Shown here: in pieces, positions 43,562 through 47,997 of the stretch
Position numbering within the stretch: the stretch's first letter is position 1
Layout: each line of letters starts with the position of its first letter
DNA from: Pseudobdellovibrionaceae bacterium
Lineage (GTDB): Bacteria > Bdellovibrionota > Bdellovibrionia > Bdellovibrionales > Bdellovibrionaceae
Direction of reading: 5' to 3'
Assembly: GCA_019637955.1 (NCBI GenBank)
Contig: JAHBUS010000005.1
Span: forward strand, 124,001-188,000
Length of the DNA stretch: 64,000 bases
The notes under the pieces: generated by a model
The model's input: the letters and a program-made list of their open reading frames with translations, nothing else
The model's database searches: none
Told to the model about the DNA's origin: nothing
Position numbers and translations under genes: made by a program

Positions 43562-43602
43562 CAAAGTTAGATTCTAGTTCCCAAAACAGTGTGTGTAGGA
43601 CT

Positions 43603-43635
43603 GGCCTTGATGAACTCAAGGCCGTCTGTTTTTAT
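43603..43635 (+). terminator. Intrinsic terminator of lon
   Basis: GGCCTTGA (43603-43610) and TCAAGGCC (43616-43623) form a perfect 8-bp stem with a 5-base loop, followed by GTCTGTTTTTAT. The stem lies 42 bases after the lon stop and separates lon from the secreted-protein genes. Confidence 0.85.
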
Positions 43636-43668: not shown

Positions 43669-44991
43669 ATGATGAAATTCATCACTCTTCTTGCGCTTTT
43701 CTTTGCCGCATCGACATCGCTGGCTAAAGACAAAACTGCGGAACCAGAAATGTACATGATGAATGCCGAGGTCGTTTTGAAGATGAACGATCAGGAGCGC
43801 ACCGAGTACTTTGAGGCGCTCCGCGAATTCATGGCAGCCAACTCGGACAAAATTCCTGGCGTTTCACAGATGCTGATCGACTCGTTGCTCGGTGAGCAGG
43901 TGGCCATGGCCGCCGACAATTTGAGACTTCCGCCAGAGTGTATAAAGGGCGATGAAATTCAAAGCGGTTCTGTCGACAATTGGGCCTGCTATTCTTGGTT
44001 TCGCTCTGCCGCTCGCGGAGGAGTCCTGGGAGAGTGCTCGGGAGCCGTTGCTGAAGGAAAGTTTTCGGTCATCACTTGCGGAGGCAAGACTTACCGCCTT
44101 CCCCGTCCTTCCGAGAGAGACGCCAGAACCCAGGCTCAAGACATGAATAGCGGGTGGGTCCCCGCTTCTCGCGATGCCGCCGCCAAGAGACAGCAGACGG
44201 CCAATCCCGCTCCCGGCACATCCCCGTCAGGGCGCCCCGAACCAGCGGCAGCTCCGGGTGCAAATCCCAACGATCCCTACCACAACCGTGATGCTGGAAA
44301 TTCGGCCCGATGTTTTTTTGGAGGCTTTGCGATTGCCCGAGATGGCAACAAGCCCTGCTCTCCGTTTCAGGATCTTTGCGCCCCGAACTTGCGGATGCGA
44401 GGACCCAAATCAGACCTCTTAAAAGAAGTCATGAAATGCTCGACCGATGAGGAAAAGAAAAAAGCGCGATGTGGCGGAGCCACAGCTCCGGCACCAACCG
44501 GCGGTGCGACGATCAAAAGGAGCCGAGCTGCTGGCGGAAACCAAATCGTTTGCAACCCCGTCCTCTACGGACTCAAGGATGATGGGTCGGTCATTTGCGT
44601 CCCCCGCAGCGGACAAGCTTCGCAAAAATGCGCGGCCGAGGCCAAAGACGACGCCATCAAAAAACTCTTGCAAGATGCCAAAGGTAAACTCGCGTTCGAC
44701 AGCATGCTGGCGACGCTCACTTTTGAATGCCGCACGCACTGGCGTATTGAAAATCCCGGCGATGTTGAGCAAGCCACGGTCGTGGCTCGAGGTGGAAACG
44801 GCGAATCCCGTGATGGAGATAAAAGCACGACCGATTTTAAAGACACTTGCAAAACTCTGGTCGATCGCGTGATCCAGATCGGGCGCAAAATTCCCGAAGT
44901 TAAAGACAATCCGACTTTCAAAACGATGATGAGCGCTTTCGGCAACACGTCGGCGGCGGGCAACCGACCGCCCGCTCCCGGCACGCGATAA
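43669..44991 (+). CDS. Secreted 14-cysteine protein, paralogue A of an unrecognised family
   Basis: From the ATG at 43669 (after GGGGGT) this is a 440-residue protein with a signal peptide (FITLLALFFAASTSLA). The N-terminal helical motif LKMNDQERTEYFEALREF is shared with the next gene, as are LPPEC, SARCFFGGFA, a DLC-(M)RGP(K/R)S block, VCNPVLYG, ICVPR, an FEC/W-IE block and FKDTCKTLVDR. The mature part has 14 Cys and a central Pro/Ala/Gly-rich linker. I recognise no family. Seven disulfides and a role in the periplasm or at the surface are plausible. The open frame extends upstream into lon, but that part is not used. Confidence 0.75.
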   Translation: MMKFITLLALFFAASTSLAKDKTAEPEMYMMNAEVVLKMNDQERTEYFEALREFMAANSDKIPGVSQMLIDSLLGEQVAMAADNLRLPPECIKGDEIQSGSVDNWACYSWFRSAARGGVLGECSGAVAEGKFSVITCGGKTYRLPRPSERDARTQAQDMNSGWVPASRDAAAKRQQTANPAPGTSPSGRPEPAAAPGANPNDPYHNRDAGNSARCFFGGFAIARDGNKPCSPFQDLCAPNLRMRGPKSDLLKEVMKCSTDEEKKKARCGGATAPAPTGGATIKRSRAAGGNQIVCNPVLYGLKDDGSVICVPRSGQASQKCAAEAKDDAIKKLLQDAKGKLAFDSMLATLTFECRTHWRIENPGDVEQATVVARGGNGESRDGDKSTTDFKDTCKTLVDRVIQIGRKIPEVKDNPTFKTMMSAFGNTSAAGNRPPAPGTR

Positions 44992-45009
44992 GTCCAGAGA
45001 ATCTCGAAA

Positions 45010-45065
45010 CGAGACGTTTTAAAACGATTCAGGCGTGAGACACGCTCTGGTCTTGAAACGTCTCG
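45010..45065 (+). other. Long intergenic stem-loop between the two paralogues
   Basis: CGAGACGTTT (45010-45019) pairs perfectly with AAACGTCTCG (45056-45065), and inside the loop GCGTG/CACGC (45033-45045) forms a second stem. TCTCG at 45002-45006 could instead pair with CGAGA at 45010-45014, giving an alternative fold. GTCTGTTTTC follows, so it may end the first gene's transcript. Confidence 0.55.
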
Positions 45066-45111
45066 CCGGGTCTGTTTTCATGAAGGAGAACCGTTTTCTT
45101 TGGGGGGAATT

Positions 45112-46530
45112 ATGCGAAGATCCTTTTTCGCGACCATTGGCTTTTTGTCCGTGCTGATGCTGGCTCTGCCGGTCCTCGCACAGGGCTCCCCGGCCCGCTC
45201 TCCGGCCAAGAAAAAAATTGAAATGCGGTTGTTTAGCGCCAGCGACTTTAATCGCATGAGCGATGTTGAAAAAGAGCAGTATCTCGAGGCGCTTCGTGAG
45301 TTTCATGAAGCTCGCCAAGAACGTGCACAAAGCGCGAGTTTTTTCTTTTTGGACGAAGTTCTCGGAAGCTTCCGTGCGTCAGCAATGACCAGGTCCGATT
45401 GCCAACAACAAATTCTCGCGGCAAAGCCTCGGGTCGCCGGGGCGGCGTATACTCCCGTCATTTTACCTCCTGAATGTGCCCTCGTTTTTCAACAAGCCAT
45501 TGGTCAGCATACCTTTGAGAAATGTTTGCCTGGCCCCATCGGTCAAGATGGAACGGACAATGCTCTGAGCGCGACAACGTTCAATTGTACGAATCAGCGG
45601 GGTGAGCCCGTACAGTACACGATTCGTGGGAGACGAGGCGACCTTCAGCAAATCGGATCGACCGCCACTGATTATCGCCGTCCTGGCTCTCGGCCCGAGT
45701 CCGCGACCGCAGAGGGCGCCCCCCGACCCGCAGCCGTATCTCAAGCGGCCCCAGGTGCTCCTTCATCGACTACGACCCAGCCCCCGGCGGCGCAGCCGGG
45801 CGCAAGGCCACAAGCACGTCCGTCTAATGACGACTCCGCCCGGTGCTTCTTCGGCGGCTTTGCTTTGAACAAACCGGCAGAAGGCTCAAAGTGCCTTCCC
45901 GTGACCGATCTCTGCAAACAAACGCATTTGCGCGCTCCACGATCTGAATCATTAACTAAGGCCATCGGTTGTGGGCCAAACAATGTCGAAATTGGAAAAT
46001 GCGGAGGGCGCAAAGGCGTGAGCGAAACGGCGGCCGCACCGGCGGCGGCGCCGGCGGGAGGCACAAACCCCATTCGCGCTGCGGATAAGCAGGTCGTGTG
46101 CAATCCGATTCTGTACGGAACACAAGCCGACGAAACGATGATCTGTGTTCCGCGCAACTCGCGCGCCTCTGCCAATTGCGGCAGTAAAAAGAATGATGAA
46201 ACCTTGAAAAATCTGCTGAAGAAACCCGATGGCATCAAAGCCTTTGATGAAATGATCAAGTCGCTCGAAAAGGAATGCCTGCCTTACTGGAAAATTGAGG
46301 GAACCAACGTCACCGAAAAATCCGAGGGTGTTCCCGAACGCCAAGGAGATGATTTCAAAACGGACTTCAAGGACACGTGCGGCGTCTTGCTTCGCCGGGC
46401 CTTGGAAATCGGCGCCGCAAGCGAAGATCCGCAAATCAAAGGCAAGGTCGAAGCTCTCAAACGATCGCCTCAGGCCCCGACCGCTCCAGCCACTGCTCCC
46501 ACCGCAGCGCCCACCGGAACAAGACGATAA
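45112..46530 (+). CDS. Secreted 14-cysteine protein, paralogue B of the same family
   Basis: This 472-residue protein has a signal peptide (IGFLSVLMLALPVLA) and aligns along its length with the preceding gene: MSDVEKEQYLEALREF, ILPPEC, SARCFFGGFA, DLC and LRAPRS, VVCNPILYG, ICVPRNSRAS, KEC-PYWKIE, and DFKDTCGVLLRRALEIG. The mature part has 14 Cys. A Pro/Ala/Gln-rich linker separates the N-terminal region from the conserved Cys-rich half, and the tail is Ala/Pro/Thr-rich ending in GTRR. Start ATG 45112 follows GGGGGGA. The pair looks like an old tandem duplication, since conserved blocks are separated by diverged linkers. Confidence 0.75.
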   Translation: MRRSFFATIGFLSVLMLALPVLAQGSPARSPAKKKIEMRLFSASDFNRMSDVEKEQYLEALREFHEARQERAQSASFFFLDEVLGSFRASAMTRSDCQQQILAAKPRVAGAAYTPVILPPECALVFQQAIGQHTFEKCLPGPIGQDGTDNALSATTFNCTNQRGEPVQYTIRGRRGDLQQIGSTATDYRRPGSRPESATAEGAPRPAAVSQAAPGAPSSTTTQPPAAQPGARPQARPSNDDSARCFFGGFALNKPAEGSKCLPVTDLCKQTHLRAPRSESLTKAIGCGPNNVEIGKCGGRKGVSETAAAPAAAPAGGTNPIRAADKQVVCNPILYGTQADETMICVPRNSRASANCGSKKNDETLKNLLKKPDGIKAFDEMIKSLEKECLPYWKIEGTNVTEKSEGVPERQGDDFKTDFKDTCGVLLRRALEIGAASEDPQIKGKVEALKRSPQAPTAPATAPTAAPTGTRR

Positions 46531-46571: not shown

Positions 46572-46662
46572 AATCCAGCTCGACTAAAACTTGCTTTGGC
46601 CGAGAGGCTATTTACGCTCCCCCGATCTTCCTTCATAATAAAGCCAAGGGTTGGGGGAATCT

Positions 46663-47997
46663 GTGAAACACAGTTTCATTCTATTTTTATTTATCTTTGG
46701 CCTGTCTCTTAAAACCATTGCGGAAGAGCCGCCGGGTCAAGCGCCGCCCGCGCCCGCAACGCAACCCCAAGCCGGGAACGACACACCTGCGGGAGGAACT
46801 CCCCGCGCCACGGACCCCACCCCCACTGGAACGGCCGCTCAGCAGAAGGCCATGGAAGAAAATAAGCAACTCACCGAGGCAGAAGCCTCCAAAAGTAAAC
46901 TGACTGAGGGAACCAAGGGATGCGAAGAGGCCATTACGGCCGCAAAAACCGCCTGTGTCGAAGACTTCAGCCCCTTTCTTCAGGCGGCCATGCAGGGCCT
47001 GACCGCCGCGATGGCCGCCCAACAGGGCGCTGCGGGAGCCAGTGGCCAGTGCCAGCAAGCACAACAAGCGCAACAGCCGGCTCAGCAAAATATGCAGAAG
47101 TACAACGCCGATTGTGCGGCGAAGAAGACCGCTTGCGAACAAAAGTGCGGACAGGCCGCGACCGGCGCCGACACCGTGAGCACGTCGACTTGCGAAGCCG
47201 ACGCCAAGAAGTCAGCGCCCACGGATCAAGCCAAGCAGCAAATGATTAAGGCCAAGTGTACAAAGGCCGCTCAGGCCAATAAGCAGGCGAACGAGCAAGG
47301 AAAAGCCTCGTGCGCGAAGCTTTCTCAGAATCAAGCGGGCGGCATGGCCGGCATCGGCGAACTTCTCAAAGGCCTCATGAAGTCCGGCCAGTGTCAGCAA
47401 GAGGTGGCCGTCGACTGTTCGAAAAATCCGACCGCTCAAGGCTGTCCCCAGGCTCTGGATTGTAACAAAGCCGAGAACGCCGCGAACCCTCGTTGTATTT
47501 GCGAAAAGAATCCGCGCGCGCCCGGCTGCGGCGGTCAGGCCGAATCGGCTCCGATCACGGATCCCACGCGCGATGACAATCAAACCACCGGCGCCAACGA
47601 TGGGTCTCTCGGAAGTCCCACCGATGGCACACCCGCGAAGTACGGTTCTGACAGCCCGGCGGCGGGCGGCGGTCTTCCCGCAAGTCCCGGGGGCGGTGGG
47701 GGCGGAGGCGGCCTCGGTAAGGGCGGCGAGCTTGCCGACAAAGGCGAAAAACCCAAAGGGATCGACACCAATGTTCTCGGTGAAGGGGGAGGCGGAGGCG
47801 GAGGCGCTTCGGCCACATCGAATGGTCTTGCGGCCTCGGACGACCCCACGGGTAAATACGGAAAGTATCTTCCTGAAGATCCGGCTCGCAAACCGACGGC
47901 CTTGGCCGATCAAGTCTCGGGAGCTGCGGGACTTTCAAATTGGGAAAAGATCCGAAAGCGTTACTCCGAGAACCGGCCTTCGCTGCTCAGACCTTAG
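46663..47997 (+). CDS. Secreted Cys-rich, Gly/Gln-rich low-complexity protein
   Basis: This 444-residue protein has a signal peptide (FILFLFIFGLSLKTIAEE), a Pro/Gln/Thr-rich start, a helical Ala/Gln/Lys/Cys-rich middle and a run of short Cys repeats (DCSKNP...GCPQ...DCNK...RCICEKNP...GCGG). Gly-rich stretches (GGGGGGGG) follow and then a hydrophilic tail. About 16 Cys are present. No family is recognised; the composition suggests an extended surface or matrix protein. GTG 46663 follows GGGGGA. It shares the leader pattern of the two preceding genes but not their conserved domain, and overlaps the phosphoesterase gene by 11 bases tail to tail. Confidence 0.65.
   Translation: MKHSFILFLFIFGLSLKTIAEEPPGQAPPAPATQPQAGNDTPAGGTPRATDPTPTGTAAQQKAMEENKQLTEAEASKSKLTEGTKGCEEAITAAKTACVEDFSPFLQAAMQGLTAAMAAQQGAAGASGQCQQAQQAQQPAQQNMQKYNADCAAKKTACEQKCGQAATGADTVSTSTCEADAKKSAPTDQAKQQMIKAKCTKAAQANKQANEQGKASCAKLSQNQAGGMAGIGELLKGLMKSGQCQQEVAVDCSKNPTAQGCPQALDCNKAENAANPRCICEKNPRAPGCGGQAESAPITDPTRDDNQTTGANDGSLGSPTDGTPAKYGSDSPAAGGGLPASPGGGGGGGGLGKGGELADKGEKPKGIDTNVLGEGGGGGGGASATSNGLAASDDPTGKYGKYLPEDPARKPTALADQVSGAAGLSNWEKIRKRYSENRPSLLRP

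Follow-up and report, generated by a model that had tools for sequence, protein, structure and literature searches.

The neighbouring genes P0001 and P0002 encode members of an exported protein family, built around a core of eight cysteines, that is widespread in Bdellovibrionota. They lie in tandem in the window analysed here, a stretch of 64,000 nucleotides from a Pseudobdellovibrionaceae bacterium. Many of the proteins that predatory bacteria secrete have no known function. A single domain that occurs in nearly all genomes of a predatory family and again in a distant second branch of the phylum, joined to varied parts, would unite many 'hypothetical' genes into one testable family. Its signature and the coordinates given below (Table 1) also allow a direct check of existing proteomes and knock-out libraries.

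Table 1. Features of the P0001/P0002 region, in window coordinates.
Feature	Position	Strand	Basis or remark
Terminator-like hairpin, lon/P0001 gap	43602..43624	+	Consensus scan; count in the region equals chance expectation
P0001, exported 14-Cys protein, 440 aa	43669..44991	+	ORF and translation; core profile match
P0001 signal peptide MMKFITLLALFFAASTSLA, AxA-like end, then KD	43669..43725	+	Predicted by eye
P0001 conserved pre-helix NDQERTEYFEALREFMAAN	43786..43842	+	Aligned block; equivalent helix in members phylum-wide
P0001 hydrophobic stretch and A-x-A before first Cys, MLIDSLLGEQVAMAA	43870..43914	+	Family-wide motif
P0001 N-block, four lineage-specific Cys, LPPEC first	43924..44088	+	Alignment; outside the phylum-wide core
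P0001 core domain C215-C394, 8 family Cys and 2 extra (DLC..KC)	44311..44850	+	
16-nt inverted repeat CGAGACGTTT../..AAACGTCTCG, P0001/P0002 gap	45010..45065	.	Repeat search
P0002, exported 14-Cys paralogue, 472 aa	45112..46530	+	ORF and translation; 164 bits against P0001
P0002 signal peptide MRRSFFATIGFLSVLMLALPVLA, then QG	45112..45180	+	Predicted by eye
P0002 conserved pre-helix SDVEKEQYLEALREFHEAR	45259..45315	+	Aligned block; equivalent helix in members phylum-wide
P0002 hydrophobic stretch and A-x-A before first Cys, FFFLDEVLGSFRASAM	45340..45387	+	Family-wide motif
P0002 N-block, four lineage-specific Cys, LPPEC second	45400..45606	+	Alignment; outside the phylum-wide core
P0002 core domain C245-C423, 8 family Cys and 2 extra	45844..46380	+	
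11-nt perfect inverted repeat TCCAACGTCTC/GAGACGTTGGA, after P0002	46544..46572	.	Repeat search
P0003, exported Cys- and Gly-rich protein, own family	46663-47997	+	

The preliminary description of this DNA had presented the pair as paralogues with signal peptides, 14 cysteines in each mature part and a shared series of sequence blocks, and in these respects it was accurate. Both signal peptides are typical by inspection. The count of 14 is exact on the translations, all cysteines falling after the end of the signal peptide. The same blocks succeed one another in the two proteins: ERTEYFEALREF in P0001 or EKEQYLEALREF in P0002, then LPPEC, SARCFFGGFA, DLC..P(K/R)S, VCNP(V/I)LYG, ICVPR and FKDTC. 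The proteins are 38% identical, far more alike than chance would produce (BLASTP 164 bits, E = 5e-50); because the scoring was composition-adjusted, the similarity does not stem from a shared Pro/Ala bias. The notion of a 14-cysteine family, on the other hand, had to be abandoned: the conserved unit is the eight-cysteine core, and the remaining six cysteines are lineage-specific. When the two proteins are aligned, the ten C-terminal cysteines pair one to one and the four N-terminal ones only in part. Since the cysteine of LPPEC is the first of the N-block in P0001 but the second in P0002, it is in part a coincidence that both proteins have 14.

The core cysteines are C215, 230, 268, 295, 310, 321, 354 and 394 in P0001 and C245, 261, 297, 330, 345, 356, 389 and 423 in P0002. 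They follow the order C-x3-G-[WFY], C, C, CNPxx[FY]G, C[VI], [AS]T..C, C, TC..l..R, which is fixed throughout an alignment of 45 sequences, and all eight are retained by 84 of the 96 non-redundant members. The pattern by which members were selected was anchored on C1, its Gly and CNP, and the conservation of those columns is therefore partly by construction; the cysteines that did not serve as anchors are present in 100% (C2 and C6), 99% (C3 and C5), 92% (C7) and 89% (C8) of the 96 members. A hydrophobic N-terminus was found in 80 of these 96 proteins. Polar positions show a different picture: the highest conservation reached by any core column is 8% for His, 22% for Glu, 32% for Asp and 29% for Lys. 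Across the 96 members, then, neither acidic residues nor His are conserved in the core, an argument against catalysis within the domain, and His, Asp, Glu or Ser of a catalytic type are not conserved there either.

Membership of the pair in this family is supported by profile and single-sequence searches. P0001 matches the core profile at E about 1e-80, the profile containing P0001 itself, and the 39-row profile (A14), which includes both proteins, detects P0001 at E 2.4e-30 and P0002 at E 3.0e-23 in their own genome. With P0001 as sole query, relatives in other genera emerged at E 4.6e-10 and 1.1e-6. Comparison of alignments by hhalign connects the subfamily of the window with the membrane-type subfamily (98.0%, E 1.7e-13) and with an f17 subfamily (97.6%, E 2.8e-12).

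The distribution of the family became visible in steps, with increasingly broad queries. A search with P0001 alone retrieves relatives in five other genomes, the matches being weak yet genuine; an alignment of the Cys-rich half finds matches in 29 of 60 relatives, and the 39-row core profile does so in 183 of 369 Bdellovibrionota genomes, or 128 of the 235 of good quality. Within the family to which the window belongs, 63 of 66 genomes are positive, its own genome included. Genomes that have the family harbour one to seven members. The preliminary description had envisaged the case that no homologues exist beyond this one genome; relatives turned up well outside it. As to its question whether the genes always occur as pairs, members elsewhere are mostly single genes: among the fetched loci, genus g3 has tandem pairs of the membrane type in two other genomes, and one further genome has a divergently oriented pair of neighbours. 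The genome of the window carries four members, namely P0001, P0002, a 476-residue protein on contig C8 and a membrane-type protein of 549 residues on contig C13. A pattern scan of 84,980 species matched only Bdellovibrionota loci, those named being from Bdellovibrionaceae or Bdellovibrionales metagenome-assembled genomes, and viral contigs and plasmids yielded no relatives with the queries used. The family is likely to be specific to Bdellovibrionota, with the reservation that such narrow patterns do not show absence elsewhere.

The duplication that gave rise to the pair had been taken to be old. P0001 and P0002 group as sisters, with support of 100/99, in a tree built from 36 core domains, a position that indicates a duplication in the lineage of the window itself, after its split from the sampled genera; the event is lineage-specific rather than ancient.

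That the domain was not recognised at the outset is borne out by the libraries, as the core has no model in Pfam-A, NCBIfam, PHROGs or PADLOC. Scans of P0001, P0002 and distant members against Pfam, NCBIfam, PHROGs and PADLOC gave nothing near a curated cut-off, and the best chance matches, PepSY_2 (E 0.17, P0001) and HdeA (E 0.07, a distant member), cover other parts of the proteins. PDB sequences did not match the profile: only chance helical hits appeared, the best being a designed helical protein at E 0.76. Structure prediction yielded a model of the P0002 core with mean pLDDT 55.6 from a 6-row alignment, good only in its helical half, and a poor model of a second member, L059 (pLDDT 46.6, 4-row alignment). 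For the P0002 core model Foldseek gave no match at E <= 0.001 and VIA none above Z 2.7, and since this predicted structure is too weak, the absence of a fold match proves nothing. No description of the family was encountered in the literature searched, in which full texts were partially covered; the domain thus appears undescribed in these libraries and papers. We file it as a disulfide-framed exported module, a kind already known. Small disulfide-rich extracellular modules such as the eukaryotic EGF, kringle and WSC types are likewise exported and framed by cysteines, have few conserved polar residues and are found joined repeatedly to other parts. The CNPxxFG and CxxAGW signatures and the cysteine order of the eight-cysteine core are not known from EGF, kringle or WSC.

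Most members share an N-terminal segment that consists of a helix of the form L..eF..Ls..q...Y...lr, a short hydrophobic stretch and an A-x-A motif, followed by the first cysteine; the arrangement looks like a pro-segment. In the window the motif reads IDSLLGEQVAMA-A in P0001 and FLDEVLGSFRASA-M in P0002, and variants in other members include EAYA, EAHA, EAWA and EAEA. A strict hydrophobic-A-x-A pattern lies no more than 40 residues before the first cysteine in 44 of 86 members, and is thus absent from about half of them; composition-preserving shuffles gave a mean of 9.7 (sd 2.9, maximum 19, n=500), an enrichment that rests on the genomes used here and on a pattern composed after inspection of the data. 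The frequency of the motif is 6.8% in windows further downstream in the same proteins and 7.5% at the same position in 107 control exported proteins. A second cleavage at this position would, if it takes place, be an uncommon way of maturation. The segment could also belong to a buried helix, and that it is an attached helix which packs on the core and stays uncut has a probability not far below one half; this concerns a single step and is compatible with the other readings of the family. The first cysteine is close (median distance from A-x-A 6 residues) and a signal peptidase acting on a chain already exported would be out of the ordinary, both of which fit a packing helix. Small residues at -3 and -1 with varied residues between them, however, are what signal peptidase prefers, and it is not obvious why a packing helix should need both alanines.

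Beyond the core the members diverge, ending in Pro-rich tails, in a membrane segment (15 of 96) or in very long regions; f17 proteins with such regions downstream of the core attain 1490 residues. Long proteins of this type (L129-L136, from f17 and from elsewhere in the phylum) are exported, measure 950-1490 residues and bear the module near the N-terminus, followed by hydrophobic hairpin-like stretches; they may be large secreted predator proteins. A C-terminal Arg is present in 33 of 87 non-redundant members and in 12 of 141 control exported proteins, and often belongs to a GxR that closes a Pro-rich tail. In the C-terminal region of four proteins (L045, L053, L054 and L055) conserved C-x-RYVK and PG[HQ][IV]EIK motifs are discernible, which look CHAP-like by eye. 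The CHAP amidase/peptidase domain (PF05257) shows comparable Cys and Gly-His patterns, seen by eye in some f17 tails, but its pattern is missing from the eight-cysteine core itself. A CHAP tail in the f17 members was rejected: the Pfam scan gave no match at E<=10, hhalign returned 0.4%, the genomes G102 and G148 carry such members yet give no CHAP match, and in L053 the His is replaced by Gln.

The explanation we prefer, tentatively and with a confidence slightly short of an even chance, is that the domain is non-catalytic and stabilised by disulfides, and serves for binding or as a structural module in the envelope or secretome of the predator, exported by Sec. A binding module is favoured over an enzyme mainly because conserved residues of catalytic type are lacking. 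The proteins would be exported by Sec and the core oxidised into four disulfides by a Dsb-type pathway, a DsbB homologue above the curated cut-off being encoded in the genome. The N-terminal segment would act as a pro-segment, which an enzyme resembling signal peptidase may cut at A-x-A, and the mature, presumably protease-resistant domain would function as a non-catalytic binding or structural module, either on the envelope of the predator or in the periplasm of its prey. Both proteins of the window have two Cys-rich parts joined by a flexible Pro/Ala linker, an arrangement that would suit a two-headed binding or tethering protein. A bolder version, in which the helical pro-segment of phylum-specific pre-pro-proteins is removed after export at a second signal-peptidase-like site and the freed, disulfide-locked domain, carried on varied secreted and membrane proteins, binds surfaces of the prey or the bdelloplast, seems to us quite unlikely. 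Also rather unlikely is a housekeeping function without particular importance for predation, in which the protein is a structural part of the cell's own envelope, either associated with peptidoglycan or as a scaffold in the periplasm. Near-universal presence in the family of the window (63 of 66 genomes) agrees with it, as does the genomic setting of some members: the membrane-type gene keeps ttcA, an RlmD-like methyltransferase gene and a membrane protein gene as neighbours by eye (L069, L070 and L081), and in several genomes from a single genus the soluble type adjoins ligA. The family is nevertheless missing from about half of the genomes in the phylum, and one to seven members per genome with widely divergent architectures are unlike most housekeeping envelope proteins.

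A secreted hydrolase or its inhibitor, with the cysteine framework holding the active or inhibitory site and the N-terminus serving as a zymogen-like autoinhibitory pro-peptide, is improbable in our estimate. Predators are established to secrete many hydrolases (e.g. PMC12546842), the N-terminus resembles a pro-segment and four f17 members have the C-terminal motifs C-x-RYVK and PG[HQ][IV]EI, CHAP-peptidase-like by eye; against this, the core offers no conserved catalytic-type His, Asp, Glu or Ser and the CHAP likeness failed every test run. Least credible, and in our view highly improbable, is a use of the cysteines in redox or metal chemistry, as thiol reservoir or metal carrier instead of structural disulfides: 14 cysteines per protein would be in keeping with it, but those of the core are widely spaced, form no CxxC pairs and are accompanied by no His, and DsbB is present in the genome.

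As regards the surroundings of these genes, no conserved gene partner of the family was found, and a stable neighbourhood exists only in the membrane-type subfamily; even there, the member of the window's own genome (L066, contig C13) adjoins the suf operon instead of ttcA. P0001 comes after lon. No Rfam match was obtained near P0001 and P0002. The inverted repeats that follow each of the two genes both contain the core AACGTCTC, a word with six occurrences in the window (2.9 expected), four of which are located here; the repeats are possibly terminators that lack a T run, or regulator sites. Downstream lies P0003, whose start is probably the GTG at 46663 and not the TTG at 46651. It was considered as an obligate partner of the eight-cysteine genes and rejected: it represents a separate family, the relatives of which (in 29 of 60 related genomes) are found at other places, and a paralogue 59% identical to it resides on contig C1 of the same genome, so the linkage to the eight-cysteine genes is not conserved.
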